The position numbers and the translations under genes were made by a program. This document shows, one piece after another, positions 57,329 to 62,127 of a stretch of DNA of 64,000 nucleotides. How positions within the stretch are numbered: position 1 is the first letter of the stretch; each line of letters begins with the position of its first letter. The notes under the pieces are model-generated. The model saw only the letters and a list, made by a program, of their open reading frames with translations. It was not told the DNA's origin and made no database searches. The stretch spans positions 1 through 64,000 of the forward strand of contig NZ_AOLP01000008.1 in NCBI RefSeq assembly GCF_000337795.1, given 5' to 3'. This DNA is from Haloferax denitrificans ATCC 35960 (GTDB taxonomy: Archaea; Halobacteriota; Halobacteria; Halobacteriales; Haloferacaceae).

Positions 57329-58899
57329 ATGCCTGTCAAACGCATCTCTCCGTTCGTGTGGGCGCTCGTCGCGACGCTACTCGTCGTCGCGGGCGGCGTC
57401 TCGCCGGTCGTCGTCGCCGCGGACGGCGTCGAGGTGCGTGCGGTCGACCACACCGGCTCGGGCGTCGTCGCCACCGAGAACGGCCGGACGTACGTCGCCT
57501 CGTGGCGGCCCTCGACGGTTTCGGTGGCCGTCGCGGCGGACGGCGGCGACTACGAGGTCTGTCTCCGGACCGACCTCGACGACGGCTCGACGATGCAGTT
57601 GGGGTGCGAGCCGCTCGGGGCGGGGGCGAACGCGACCGGCGACCAGCGCGTCGACTTCGAGTTCGAAACGTGGCCGGCGAACGCGACCGGCGACCGCACC
57701 GTAACAGCCGTCGTCAGACCCGGCGGCGGCGAGCCGGTCGCGCAGGCGAGTCACGGCGTCACGGTGCTCGCGCCGGCCGGGGACGCCGACGGCGACGGTC
57801 TCGGCAACCGTGACGAACTCGACCGCGGCACGGACGTGCTCGTCGCCGACACCGACACCGATGGCGTGCCCGACGGCGAGGAAGTCAACCGCTACGAGAC
57901 CGACCCGACGAGCACTGACACCGACGGCGACGACCTCAGCGACGGCGTCGAAATCAACGAGCAGGGAGCAACCCGACCGAGACGGACACCGACGGCGACG
58001 GCCTCGACGACGGTGCGGAGGTGACGACCCACGGCACGGACCCGACGACCGCCGACACCGACGGCGACGGTCTCGACGACGGCGCGGAAGTCAACGACTA
58101 CGAGACCAACCCGACCGCCACCGACACCGACGGCGACGGTCTCGACGACGGGCCGGAGGTCAACGTCCACGAGACGAATCCCACCGCCGCCGACACCGAC
58201 GGCGACGGCCTCGACGACGGCGCGGAAGTCAACCGCTACGAGACGAACCCAACCGAGGCCGACACCGACGGCGACGGTCTCGACGACGGGCGCGAGGTCA
58301 ACGTCATCGGGACCGACCCGAACCGCGGCGACACCGACGGCGACGGGCGCGGGGACGGCGCGGAGGTCGAAGCGGGGACCGACCCGAGCGCCGCGCCGGG
58401 GTCGGTCGTCGGGTCGCTGGAACTCGGCGACGACGGCTGGTTGCTCGTGCTCGCGGTCGCGGCCGTCGCGGTCGCCCTGCTCGTCGTCGGCGCGCGAGTC
58501 CGGAGGACCGACGCGAGAGCGCGACTATCTGACGTTCGCTCGCTCGCGACCGACCGCGTCGACGAGGCCGCCGCCAACGGGGAGTCGGCGGACGGGGTTC
58601 GGACCGGCGGGAGCGGCGGCGCGGCGCGCCCGGAGTCGGCCGCCGACGGCTACCCCGACGCCGAAGAACTCCTCGACGACGAGACGCGCGTCCTCAGGCT
58701 CCTCGACGACAACGGCGGCCAACTCCGGCAGTCGAAGGTCGTCGAGGGCACGGGGTGGTCGAAGTCGAAGGTGAGCCGCGTCCTCTCGCGGATGGCCGAG
58801 GAGGGCACCGTCACGAAGATAAACCTCGGCCGGGAGAACCTCATCGCCCGCCCCGAGGACGTGCCCGAACACGCCCGGTCGCCGTTCGACGAGTCCTGA
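57329..58899 (+). pseudogene. Thrombospondin type-3 repeat/wHTH membrane protein, split by a one-base deletion
   Basis: Two frames join into one gene. Frame 1 (57329-58024) gives a signal peptide (RISPFVWALVATLLVVAGGVSPVVVAA), a beta domain and the first calcium-binding type-3 repeats (DTDTDGVPDGEEVNRYETDPTSTDTDGDD), then leaves frame after EINEQG. In the second frame the repeats continue (SNPTETDTDGDGLDDG...) from 57967 and run to a membrane segment (WLLVLAVAAVAVALLVV, about 58440-58490) and a C-terminal winged helix (RVLRLLDDNGGQLRQSKVVEGTGWSKSKVS). Restoring one base in the Gly codon at 57965-57966 rejoins the frames to a 523-residue protein: outside calcium-binding stalk, membrane segment, inside DNA-binding domain. 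It may be a real inactivation, a sequencing error or recoding. Confidence 0.78.
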
Positions 58900-58956: not shown

Positions 58957-58972
58957 GTTGGAACATACCAAC
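58957..58972. promoter_or_regulatory. Shared palindromic operator, copy 1 (HTH_10 gene)
   Basis: GTTGGAACATACCAAC, 5 bases before a TATA-like CTATAG (58978-58983) and 35 bases before the ATG at 59008. It is one of four copies of GTTGGAA-N2-T-N-CCAAC in 3.2 kb. The position directly upstream of the BRE/TATA suggests activator binding, or repression by occlusion. Confidence 0.75.
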
Positions 58973-59007: not shown

Positions 59008-59781
59008 ATGCGAGAGTTCGTCTTCACGGTCGAGTACGAGCGGGGCGTCGACGAGGTGATGGACCTCTTCATCGAGAACCCGGACCTGCACTCCAAGACG
59101 ATGGCGATACACGCCACGAGCGAGTCGATGTGGCGGCTCGACCGCCTCACCGGACCGACGGAGGCGCTCGAAGCGTTCGACGAGGTCATAGAGCAGGCCA
59201 CCCGGTGCAACGGCGTCCTCGGGATGTGCGGCGCGCCGGTCGTCGAGTGGGACTACGAGGTGCTCTCGGAGACGCCGAACGGGCGCATCGTCTACTCCTG
59301 CCGCGAGGAGGGCGACGGGATTCAGTCGATTCCCCACGTCGCCGCGAAGCACATCGGCGACGGCCTCCTGATGCAGGCCGAACGCCGGGGCGCACAGAAC
59401 CAGTGGCGACTGCTCATCTCCGACGACGACACGGTGAGCGAGATTTACGAGGAAGTCAAAGACAGCCTCAGTGAGGGCCTCTCGCTGAGCGTCCAGCGCA
59501 TCAGCGAACCCGAGTGCTGGCTCGAAGAGGGCGTTTCGGCCGACGGGCTTCCGCCGGAACAGCAGGCCGCGCTCGAAGCCGCCGTCGAGTTCGGCTACTA
59601 CGAGACGCCGCGGCAACACACCGTCCAAGAGATTTCGGAGGAGCTCGACATCCCGAACTCGACGCTCCAGTACCGCCTGACCCGCGCCGAGGCGTGGCTG
59701 GCCCGGCAGTTCGTCACCGAGACGCTCGGCACCGAAGTCGAAGAGCGCGTCGACCCCGAAAAGCTCGAAGCGAGCGCCTGA
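59008..59781 (+). CDS. Bacterio-opsin activator-type (HTH_10) transcription regulator
   Basis: A 257-residue regulator, MREFVFTVEYERGVDEVMDLF..., from the ATG at 59008 (a GTG at 58999 is also in frame). An N-terminal BAT-like sensing domain (about residues 1-195) precedes a C-terminal HTH_10 (LPPEQQAALEAAVEFGYYETPRQHTVQEISEELDIPNST). It lacks receiver or PAS domains, so it probably senses directly. The palindrome at 58957-58972 is in its promoter, making it both a member and the most likely regulator of the four-gene set. Confidence 0.87.
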   Translation: MREFVFTVEYERGVDEVMDLFIENPDLHSKTMAIHATSESMWRLDRLTGPTEALEAFDEVIEQATRCNGVLGMCGAPVVEWDYEVLSETPNGRIVYSCREEGDGIQSIPHVAAKHIGDGLLMQAERRGAQNQWRLLISDDDTVSEIYEEVKDSLSEGLSLSVQRISEPECWLEEGVSADGLPPEQQAALEAAVEFGYYETPRQHTVQEISEELDIPNSTLQYRLTRAEAWLARQFVTETLGTEVEERVDPEKLEASA

Positions 59782-59827: not shown

Positions 59828-59843
59828 GTTGGAATATTCCAAC
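59828..59843. promoter_or_regulatory. Shared palindromic operator, copy 2 (SUI1 gene)
   Basis: GTTGGAATATTCCAAC is a perfect 16-base palindrome, 7 bases before TGATATG (59851-59857) and 36 bases before the SUI1 start at 59880. Confidence 0.78.
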
Positions 59844-59879: not shown

Positions 59880-60182
59880 GTGGGAAAGGACACTTTCAGC
59901 GACATCACCGGCCTCCCGGACGACCTCGGAATCGGCGACGACCTCGCGCGGGCGGACCAGCGCGCGTCGATTCGCGTCGATACCCGACGGTACGGCAAGC
60001 CCGTGACGGTGGTCGACGGCCTCGACCTCCCGGCCGACGAACTGGACGCCCTCGCGTCGACCCTGAAGCGACGGCTCGCGGTCGGCGGGACCGTGACCGA
60101 CGGGCGCATCGAACTGCAGGGCGAACACGGCGAGCGCCTCGAAGCCGCGCTCCGCGACGAGGGCTTCGGCGTCGAGCGCTGA
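59880..60182 (+). CDS. SUI1/eIF1-family translation initiation factor
   Basis: A 100-residue protein starting at a GTG at 59880 (MGKDTFSDITGLPDDLGIGDDLAR). The SUI1 domain covers about residues 30-100: SIRVDTRRYGKPVTVVDGLDLPADELDALAS, TLKRRLAVGGTVTDGRIELQGEHGERLEAAL. Archaeal SUI1 monitors start-codon selection on the small ribosomal subunit. The palindrome at 59828-59843 puts it in the same regulon as the HTH_10 and TFB genes, suggesting that this copy is condition-specific rather than the housekeeping factor. Confidence 0.88.
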   Translation: MGKDTFSDITGLPDDLGIGDDLARADQRASIRVDTRRYGKPVTVVDGLDLPADELDALASTLKRRLAVGGTVTDGRIELQGEHGERLEAALRDEGFGVER

Positions 60183-60296: not shown

Positions 60297-60314
60297 GTTT
60301 GGCATATTCCAAAC
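60297..60314. promoter_or_regulatory. Shared palindromic operator, copy 3 (TFB gene)
   Basis: GTTTGGCATATTCCAAAC, a variant with TTTGG/CCAAA arms extended to 18 bases; it lies 5 bases before the TATA-like CCCATTA (60320-60326) and 40 bases before the TFB start at 60355. The same TCCCATTA octamer follows copy 4 at similar spacing. Confidence 0.75.
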
Positions 60315-60354: not shown

Positions 60355-61389
60355 ATGGACACGAAACACGTCGACTGGCGTTCGATGCGAGAGGAGTCGG
60401 CACCGACGGCGGGGCCCGAGTCCCGACAGTCCGGCGACGAGCGCGTCGAGGACGAGGCCGAGGCCGAGGCGTCCGAGGCGGCGGTCGCGGAGCGGACCGA
60501 CCTCGTCTACGACGAGCAACACGGCGAGTGGGTCGACCCCGAGACGGGCGAGATTCTCCGCGAGGACGAAATCGACCACGGTCCCGAGTGGCGCGCGTTC
60601 GACGCCGCGGAGCGCGACCAGAAGTCCCGCGTCGGCGCGCCGACGACGACCATGATGCACGACAAGGGGCTGTCGACCAACATCGGCTGGCAGAACAAAG
60701 ACGCCTACGGCAACTCCCTGTCGACGGGCCAGCGCCAGAAGATGCAACGACTCCGGACGTGGAACGAGCGGTTCCGCACCCGCGACTCGAAAGAGCGCAA
60801 CCTCAAGCAGGCGCTCGGCGAAGTCGAGCGGATGGGCTCCGCGCTCGGCCTGCCGGACACGGTCCGCGAGACGGCCTCGGTCATCTACCGTCGCGCGCTC
60901 AACGAGGACCTACTGCCCGGTCGCTCTATCGAGGGCGTCGCCACGGCCGCCATCTACGCCGCCGCTCGACAGGCCGGCGTCCCCCGTTCCCTCGACGAGG
61001 TGCGGCGCGTCTCCCGCGTCGACAAGATGGAACTCACCCGGACGTACCGCTACGTCTCCCGCGAGCTGGGGCTGGACATGAAGCCGGCCGACCCGGCGCA
61101 GTACCTCCCGCGGTTCGTCTCCGAACTCGACGTGAGCGACGACGTGGAGCGCCGCGCCCGGTCGCTTCTCGACAACGCGAAGCGGCAGGGCATCCACAGC
61201 GGGAAAAGCCCGGTCGGGCTCGCGGCGGCGGCCATCTACGCCGGCGCGCTCCTCGCCGACGAGGAACTGACGCAGTCCGAGGTGAGCAACGTGACCGACA
61301 TCAGCGAAGTGACTATCAGGAACCGCTACCGCGAACTCCTCGAAGCGACCCAGAAGCCGGGCGAACGGACCGTCGGGTCGACCGCCTAA
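60355..61389 (+). CDS. Transcription initiation factor TFB with degenerate, cysteine-free zinc ribbon
   Basis: A 344-residue TFB paralogue. The core has two cyclin-like repeats (about 150-240: DTVRETASVIYRRALNEDLLPGRS, VATAAIYAAARQAGVPRSLDEV; about 245-335: YLPRFVSELDVSDDVERRARS, VGLAAAAIYAGALLADEELTQSEV) that contact TBP and BRE. The N-terminal ribbon keeps the family context (ERTDLVYDEQHGEWVDPETGEILREDEIDHGPEWRAF) but all four zinc-binding cysteines are gone, and the whole protein has no cysteine. The B-finger region SRVGAPTTTMMHDKGLSTNIG is kept. The ribbon normally docks on RNA polymerase, so recruitment may differ. The palindrome at 60297-60314 lies in its promoter. Confidence 0.9.
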   Translation: MDTKHVDWRSMREESAPTAGPESRQSGDERVEDEAEAEASEAAVAERTDLVYDEQHGEWVDPETGEILREDEIDHGPEWRAFDAAERDQKSRVGAPTTTMMHDKGLSTNIGWQNKDAYGNSLSTGQRQKMQRLRTWNERFRTRDSKERNLKQALGEVERMGSALGLPDTVRETASVIYRRALNEDLLPGRSIEGVATAAIYAAARQAGVPRSLDEVRRVSRVDKMELTRTYRYVSRELGLDMKPADPAQYLPRFVSELDVSDDVERRARSLLDNAKRQGIHSGKSPVGLAAAAIYAGALLADEELTQSEVSNVTDISEVTIRNRYRELLEATQKPGERTVGSTA

Positions 61390-61518: not shown

Positions 61519-62067
61519 TCAGCGGTTGCACGAACACGTCGAGCGGGTCGCACCGTCGCGTCCCGGCCGAGCGTCGCGGACGCAGTCGAGGAGTTCGCTC
61601 GCGGTCTCGCGAACGGCGCGTCGGGCGCTCGATTCGGGGCGTCGCTCTCGGTAGTCGAGGTAGAGCGCCGTCGGCAGGAGAAGCGAGGCGTACACGCCGC
61701 TGACGGCGACGGCAATCTGCACCGGGTGGTCGGCGGGGACGACCGCCCACCCGACCGCGATGAGCGCCCACAGCCCGATTCCCTGTCGAACGGTCGGACG
61801 CCATCGGTTCGTTCGCGCCGACTGCGCCTGCACGTCGAGGCTGGGGTCAACGTCGACGGCGTCGGCGTCGATATCGATGTCGGCGTCGGCGTCGATATCG
61901 ATGTCGGCGTCGGCGTCGATATCGATGTCGGCGTCGGCGTCGATATCGATGTCGGCGTCGGTGTCGGCGTCATCGCCCGAGTCGGACGCCGAGCGGTCGA
62001 CTCGGCGGGGCTCGGTCCGCGTGTCGTCACGTGGAGAAGCGGCGTGACGGGACCTTTGTTCGGACAT
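61519..62067 (-). CDS. Membrane protein with DADADIDI repeat
   Basis: A 182-residue protein from the ATG at 62067 (MSEQRSRHAASPRDDTRTEP). After a charged start and an Asp/Ala/Ile repeat (four 8-residue units DADADIDI plus flanks, residues about 35-70) it has two membrane segments (about 95-135: GIGLWALIAVGWAVVP; HPVQIAVAVSGVYASLLLPTALYLDY) and a cytoplasmic tail ending in TRSTCSCNR. The palindrome at 62112-62127 lies 44 bases upstream of the start, so it is the fourth member of the set. Function unknown. Confidence 0.72.
   Translation of the reverse strand: MSEQRSRHAASPRDDTRTEPRRVDRSASDSGDDADTDADIDIDADADIDIDADADIDIDADADIDIDADAVDVDPSLDVQAQSARTNRWRPTVRQGIGLWALIAVGWAVVPADHPVQIAVAVSGVYASLLLPTALYLDYRERRPESSARRAVRETASELLDCVRDARPGRDGATRSTCSCNR
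61867..61962. repeat. Four 24-bp tandem repeats in the membrane protein gene
   Basis: Copies of GTCGATATCGATGTCGGCGTCGGC-type units at 61867-61890, 61891-61914, 61915-61938 and 61939-61962; the last ends GGT instead of GGC. On the minus strand they encode the DADADIDI repeat. The unit contains ATCGAT palindromes; copy number may vary between strains. Confidence 0.85.
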
Positions 62068-62111: not shown

Positions 62112-62127
62112 GTTGGAATGTGCCAAC
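62112..62127. promoter_or_regulatory. Shared palindromic operator, copy 4 (membrane protein gene)
   Basis: GTTGGAATGTGCCAAC, in the minus-strand promoter of the gene starting at 62067. Its TATA-like element, read on the minus strand, is CCCATTA (62099-62105), as in the TFB promoter. Confidence 0.72.

Follow-up and report, generated by a model that had tools for sequence, protein, structure and literature searches.

Why haloarchaea keep so many TFBs is a long-asked question. The stretch of Haloferax denitrificans ATCC 35960 DNA analyzed here (64,000 nucleotides, referred to as the window) raises it for a TFB that carries no cysteines in its zinc ribbon, the part of TFIIB that docks on RNA polymerase. 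Can such a protein still act as an initiation factor, and if so, under which conditions would it be used?

A sequence-only reading had described the ribbon and the whole protein as free of cysteines and the B-finger and cyclin repeats as intact. Both descriptions held when the open reading frame and its translation were checked: the gene begins with an ATG that is kept among relatives, and its 344–amino acid product, which starts with MDTKHVDW, contains no cysteine at all. A Pfam search detected the TFIIB cyclin repeat twice (PF00382, E 7.9e-45). The match of residues 48-82 to PF08271, the zinc-ribbon model, reached 22 bits, which is under the cut-off of 29, and the NCBIfam model PRK00423 scored 382.4 against a cut-off of 384. 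The gene thus encodes a TFB-family protein that has the two cyclin repeats and lacks the two CxxC pairs of the family's zinc ribbon. The corresponding features are as follows.

60355..61389, + strand: type-B TFB, cysteine-free, 344 amino acids, two TFIIB repeats
60496..60600, + strand: ribbon region, spanning residues 48-82 and devoid of zinc cysteines (Pfam Zn_Ribbon_TF match under cut-off; dN/dS; AF2 strands)
60535..60549, + strand: DPETG in place of the second zinc knuckle CPECG, from alignment to human TFIIB and paralogues

In the alignment, ..DMICPECGLVV.. of human TFIIB corresponds to ..EWVDPETGEIL.. of the window TFB, so that the second CxxC pair has become DPET, while the first knuckle, CPxCGG, is missing; the ribbon motif that is kept reads DLVYDEQHGEWVDPETGE. 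The B-reader and B-linker (GPEWRAF...KSRVGxPTT..MHD.GLST.I.W) are nearly invariant as compared to four-cysteine TFBs, and the B-reader, cyclin, and BRE-helix residues of the type-B protein are invariant. AF2 predicts a well-defined core with a disordered N-terminal tail and B-linker, and it places three short strands in the ribbon (50-53, 58-60, and 67-69) at a pLDDT of only 53-59, that is, with moderate confidence; the ribbon blocks of the second cysteine-free TFB type described below (type A) reach 63-71. A zinc-free ribbon would be consistent with this model but is not proven by it. A fold search of the PDB returned only the TFIIB core, as expected.

Of 15 Haloferax genomes, 11 carry an orthologue of the type-B TFB, as do three genomes outside the genus, one from another genus of Haloferacaceae (G213) and two from another family (G290 and G364). 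All 13 aligned orthologues lack the four cysteines, and they share the near-invariant motif (D/E)LVYDE(Q/R)HGEWV(D/N)(P/E)ETGE. The relatives fetched by similarity from other genera carry four cysteines, apart from one truncated locus that shows two. Among seven close Haloferax type-B sequences, dN/dS was 0.027 for the ribbon, 0.02-0.06 for the cyclin repeats, and 0.46 for the N-terminal tail. The cysteine-free ribbon is thus under strong purifying selection. Orthologue conservation and dN/dS together rule out a pseudogene, drift, or a sequencing accident as the origin of the window TFB.

The gene lies within a small module whose members share a palindrome. By aligning upstream regions, we found the sequence TTGGNAYRTNCCAA, which occurs four times in the 3.83-Mb genome, every time at the TFB locus; the shuffle expectation is 0.07 per window, even when one mismatch is allowed. 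In the list below, distances run from the first base of the palindrome to the start codon.

58958..58971, + strand: putative operator TTGGAACATACCAA upstream of the regulator, 50 bp to ATG
59008..59781, + strand: HVO_2928_N plus HTH_10 (Bat-type) regulator (Pfam HVO_2928_N E 3e-66, HTH_10 4.5e-13)
59829..59842, + strand: putative operator TTGGAATATTCCAA upstream of the SUI1 paralogue, 51 bp to GTG
59880..60182, + strand: SUI1/aIF1 paralogue beginning with GTG, in which the zinc cysteines (CxxC...CxC) are missing (Pfam SUI1 3e-16; compared by alignment to the canonical aIF1 of the genome, CSTCGLPEELCVC)
60299..60312, + strand: putative operator TTGGCATATTCCAA upstream of the TFB, 56 bp to ATG, conserved before type-B TFBs in Haloferax
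61519..62067, - strand: hypothetical protein whose C-terminal segment is hydrophobic; the gene converges with the TFB gene, is kept beside it in Haloferax, and is the fourth to bear an operator
62113..62126, - strand: putative operator TTGGCACATTCCAA upstream of the hypothetical gene, 59 bp to ATG

The palindrome follows the type-B TFB across genomes. Other Haloferax with a type-B TFB carry 4, 4, 4, and 3 copies, all at the type-B locus, whereas Haloferax without this TFB have none. Outside the genus, an exact site precedes the TFB of G364, with a one-mismatch site before its regulator, and two-mismatch sites precede the TFBs of G290 and G213. The regulator, in which an HVO_2928_N domain is followed by HTH_10, likewise accompanies the type-B TFB in all genomes examined (G000, G002, G004, G010, G213, G290, and G364); the two genes point in the same direction in Haloferax and converge in G213, G290, and G364. 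Among Haloferax without the TFB, the regulator is absent from G005 and G006, is represented by only a distant homologue in G007, and has a broken N terminus in G012, where the 94 N-terminal residues of the copy (L216, G012:C543:3450-3938) are lost or replaced.

Bat-type HTH_10 proteins are activators. The linked regulator resembles Bat, NarO, and DmsR, the HTH_10 activators of haloarchaea, in combining HTH_10 with a conserved N-terminal domain that bears cysteines. It differs from them in belonging to the HVO_2928_N subfamily, in putatively having a palindrome of its own (TTGG-N6-CCAA), and in having relatives that adjoin heavy-metal ATPases rather than respiration genes.

Between the regulator and the TFB, the SUI1 paralogue reads TFSDITGLPDDLGIGDD where the canonical aIF1 has VCSTCGLPEELCVCED, and all four zinc cysteines are gone; the canonical protein (L296) is retained elsewhere in the genome. 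Cysteine-free SUI1 paralogues also occur at other loci, in genomes that have neither a type-B TFB nor the operator, and a second SUI1/aIF1 copy without zinc cysteines (L303-L316) was seen in most haloarchaeal genomes checked.

The TFB of the module similarly stands beside zinc-type originals. Of the nine complete, alignable TFBs of the genome, seven keep their ribbon cysteines: L002-L005, which align through the ribbon, and three divergent TFBs. The window TFB is 63-70% identical to the three closest four-cysteine proteins and thus coexists, as a ligand-free paralogue, with the retained originals L003-L005. Divergent TFBs of the genome (L013, L014, and L015) have extra cysteines directly before the ribbon (DESCGKSCG...CPECGG). 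With archaeal TFB/TFIIB, putatively the TfbB/D/F-like haloarchaeal paralogues (PMC4230888, PMC5861453), the window TFB has the cyclin repeats, the B-reader/B-linker, and the BRE-recognition helix in common; it differs from them in the absence of zinc cysteines and in its position in a dedicated, operator-defined module.

What might such a module respond to? The operator shared by its members is evident from sequence, and its putative link to metal comes from the same operator at heavy-metal ATPase genes. In G021 and G041, the nearest homologues of the regulator (37 and 33% identity, respectively) immediately precede a ZntA/Cd-type P1B ATPase, and a TTGG-N6-CCAA site is found between the two genes; the G021 ATPase scores above the NCBIfam cut-offs for both the heavy-metal and the cadmium families. 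When 243 haloarchaeal genomes were searched with the extended operator TTGGNAYRTNCCAANCNAGG, it was found in 19 places in 13 genomes. Eleven of these are at Haloferax type-B modules, and the remaining eight (in G017, G089, G168, G193, G230, G021, G172, and G197) are each located 51 bp ahead of the start codon of a heavy-metal (ZntA-type P1B) ATPase with an MDCPSC domain. Apart from the type-B module and these ATPases, no gene type was found behind the extended operator in the 243 genomes. In six of the eight ATPase cases, an HVO_2928_N regulator with the motif C-x5-C...C is located directly upstream. The conserved 20-base operator, the HVO_2928_N/HTH_10 regulator, and the ZntA-type ATPase (L317-L320 and L326-L329) form a candidate metal-responsive regulatory unit in their own right.

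Because the same operator precedes ZntA-type ATPases elsewhere, the module of the window is probably induced by metal stress. The ATPase-side regulators are only 33-37% identical to the regulator at the window locus, and the family cysteine motif is partly eroded in Haloferax regulators; thus, the signal may have changed at the type-B module. The suggestion of the sequence-only reading that the protein is a factor specific to stress and unaffected by the loss of zinc or by thiol oxidation gains strong circumstantial support, both from the operator held in common with heavy-metal ATPases and from the cysteine-free aIF1 within the four-operator module.

Together, the motifs and gene neighborhoods suggest that the window TFB is probably a working, zinc-independent TFB within a metal-responsive module of zinc-free initiation factors. 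Replacement of the CPECG knuckle by a zinc-free DPETG turn would make the ribbon independent of zinc, and the ribbon would still recruit RNA polymerase. The HVO_2928_N-type HTH_10 regulator would bind TTGG-N6-CCAA, just upstream of the BRE/TATA position, before its own gene and those for the window TFB, the cysteine-free aIF1/SUI1 paralogue, and the small hypothetical protein. Given the Bat-type HTH_10 domain and this location of the site, it would be expected to activate rather than repress. The inducer may be metal stress in the form of toxic thiophilic metals or a disturbed zinc supply, and with the zinc-containing initiation factors poisoned or unloaded, the module would provide metal-blind substitutes for both transcription and translation. 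That the TFB is the transcription arm of a metal-stress–induced, four-operator regulon, working without zinc alongside a cysteine-free aIF1, is the reading toward which we lean, with modest confidence. We are more tentative about the fuller version, which is possible: upon metal stress, a dedicated HTH_10 regulator, with the four operators as its complete regulon, might swap the zinc TFB and aIF1 for zinc-free paralogues, which would parallel, in archaea, the zinc-free ribosomal-protein switch of bacteria.

Loss of the ribbon cysteines is real in the window TFB but not unique to it. The alignment of the genome's TFBs revealed that a second protein, L001 (G000:C17:16372-17286), also lacks all four. 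A scan for TFBs without the second CxxC pair was positive in 93 of 392 haloarchaeal genomes from 22 genera, nearly all of them Haloferacaceae; with this count, and two of nine TFBs affected here, haloarchaeal TFBs do not lack these cysteines in general. Most of the positives form a separate clade, type A, characterized by VRTADGELIHE(E/P)TG (L001 and loci L132-L182). It spans nearly all Haloferacaceae and is 85-88% identical to orthologues from other families that still have all four cysteines. In a tree built without the ribbon columns, type B formed one clade (support 100/99) nested among four-cysteine TFBs. An AU test rejected a single clade of types A and B (p 3.5e-74), with the two separated by a long, fully supported distance, which rules out one origin for all cysteine-free TFBs. 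Type A lost the same four cysteines as type B, independently. Because type A is so similar to its four-cysteine orthologue, a cysteine-less ribbon is compatible with an otherwise ordinary TFB.

A comparable change is seen in another basal factor. In Haloferax TFE-alpha (L229, G000:C19:49238; L227), CPECG has become CPETG, the same cysteine-to-threonine swap as in the window TFB knuckle. One cysteine is left in both Haloferax genomes tested, as compared to three or four in other families and genera, including other Haloferacaceae. Because type A spans the whole family and the TFE-alpha loss does not, the two losses were not synchronous; a coordinated loss in TFB and TFE-alpha is ruled out, as the reduction of TFE-alpha to one cysteine was found only in Haloferax among the genomes tested. 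For Haloferax volcanii TFE-alpha, a degenerate ribbon with low-affinity zinc binding has been measured, and haloarchaea generally tend toward cysteine loss (PMC5861453). The H. volcanii TFE-alpha/beta system with its lost metal centers (PMC5861453) thus resembles the window TFB as a basal factor with a degenerate ribbon and, in Haloferax TFE-alpha, the CPECG-to-CPETG change. TFE-alpha, however, is a sole copy with one cysteine left, whereas the window TFB has several paralogues and no cysteine.

The independent loss in type A and the change in TFE-alpha mean that cysteine loss alone is not the surprise. They also speak for a rival explanation, in which the window protein is an ordinary promoter-selective TFB that shed its cysteines neutrally in a lineage prone to losing cysteines and metal centers, with no connection to zinc or metal: both the family-wide, 85-88% identical type A and the TFE-alpha ribbon missing three of its four cysteines (PMC5861453) fit it. 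Neutral loss would nevertheless leave unexplained why the operator is held in common exclusively with heavy-metal ATPases and why an aIF1 paralogue without zinc cysteines lies inside the four-operator set, and we regard it as rather unlikely.

The sequence-only reading had also proposed a competitor or anti-TFB, which would hold TBP-promoter complexes with a broken ribbon unable to engage RNA polymerase and so stop ordinary initiation under stress. The cyclin repeats that bind TBP and DNA are indeed intact, the altered ribbon is the polymerase-docking part, and a stress-induced repressor would also fit the operator. A dead ribbon should drift, however, yet among close relatives this one is constrained like the cyclin repeats (dN/dS 0.027), and the BRE helix is conserved, as is the B-reader, the part that works within RNA polymerase. 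With a cysteine-free type A so close to a normal four-cysteine orthologue, the proposal found no support, and we consider it quite improbable. Weak metal binding by the ribbon through Asp, Glu, and His residues (D53, H56, E58, D61, and E63), analogous to binding by the degenerate TFE-alpha through its single cysteine, would have a precedent in the low-affinity zinc measured for that protein (PMC5861453) but is very improbable, as the ribbon retains no cysteine at all and has no first knuckle, the residues at the turn match an ordinary beta turn, and the type-A pattern differs (HEETG or HEPTG).

A zinc-independent TFB in a metal-responsive module would be loosely analogous to the bacterial zinc-independent (C-) ribosomal-protein paralogues under Zur (PMC5912738, PMC8000910). 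In both cases, cysteine-less paralogues of gene-expression proteins exist beside zinc-binding originals; they are grouped under one metal-linked regulator in bacteria and putatively so in the module. The module differs in being archaeal, in comprising transcription and translation initiation factors instead of ribosomal proteins, in having an HTH_10 regulator instead of Zur, and in a trigger that is possibly metal excess rather than starvation. In H. volcanii, hypochlorite raises Tfb1 and Tfb2 (PMC10294847), and iron starvation lowers them (PMC11349517); the type-B TFB may or may not be among them, but these responses indicate that TFB levels respond to redox and metal conditions. In the open literature, we found no paper on cysteine-free TFB ribbons, on the palindrome, or on the function of HVO_2928_N regulators. 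What is new here is the setting of the cysteine-free TFB: its operator set, its cysteine-free aIF1, and the company of heavy-metal ATPases. For one haloarchaeal TFB, this setting offers a concrete, testable answer to why it is kept, namely as a metal-proof initiation factor coregulated with a metal-proof translation factor. If true, the zinc-free-paralogue strategy of bacterial ribosomes would also apply to general transcription and translation initiation in archaea, the TFIIB ribbon would be shown to be able to work without zinc, and the metal-linked haloarchaeal operator and regulator family could be used as a reporter.

Two neighboring genes deserve brief mention. The hypothetical protein at 61519-62067 has no Pfam match and gives weak matches in G290 and G364 as well; within its gene, a tandem repeat of 24-bp units (61857-61966, 98% matches) encodes DADIDIDA repeats. 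The N-terminal part of the protein differs from species to species. On the other side of the module, 57329-58899 encodes a TSP3-repeat protein with a signal-peptide–like start and a C-terminal DUF7343 winged helix; its coding sequence appears to be divided between two overlapping frames within 69-bp repeats, and a frameshift may be the reason.
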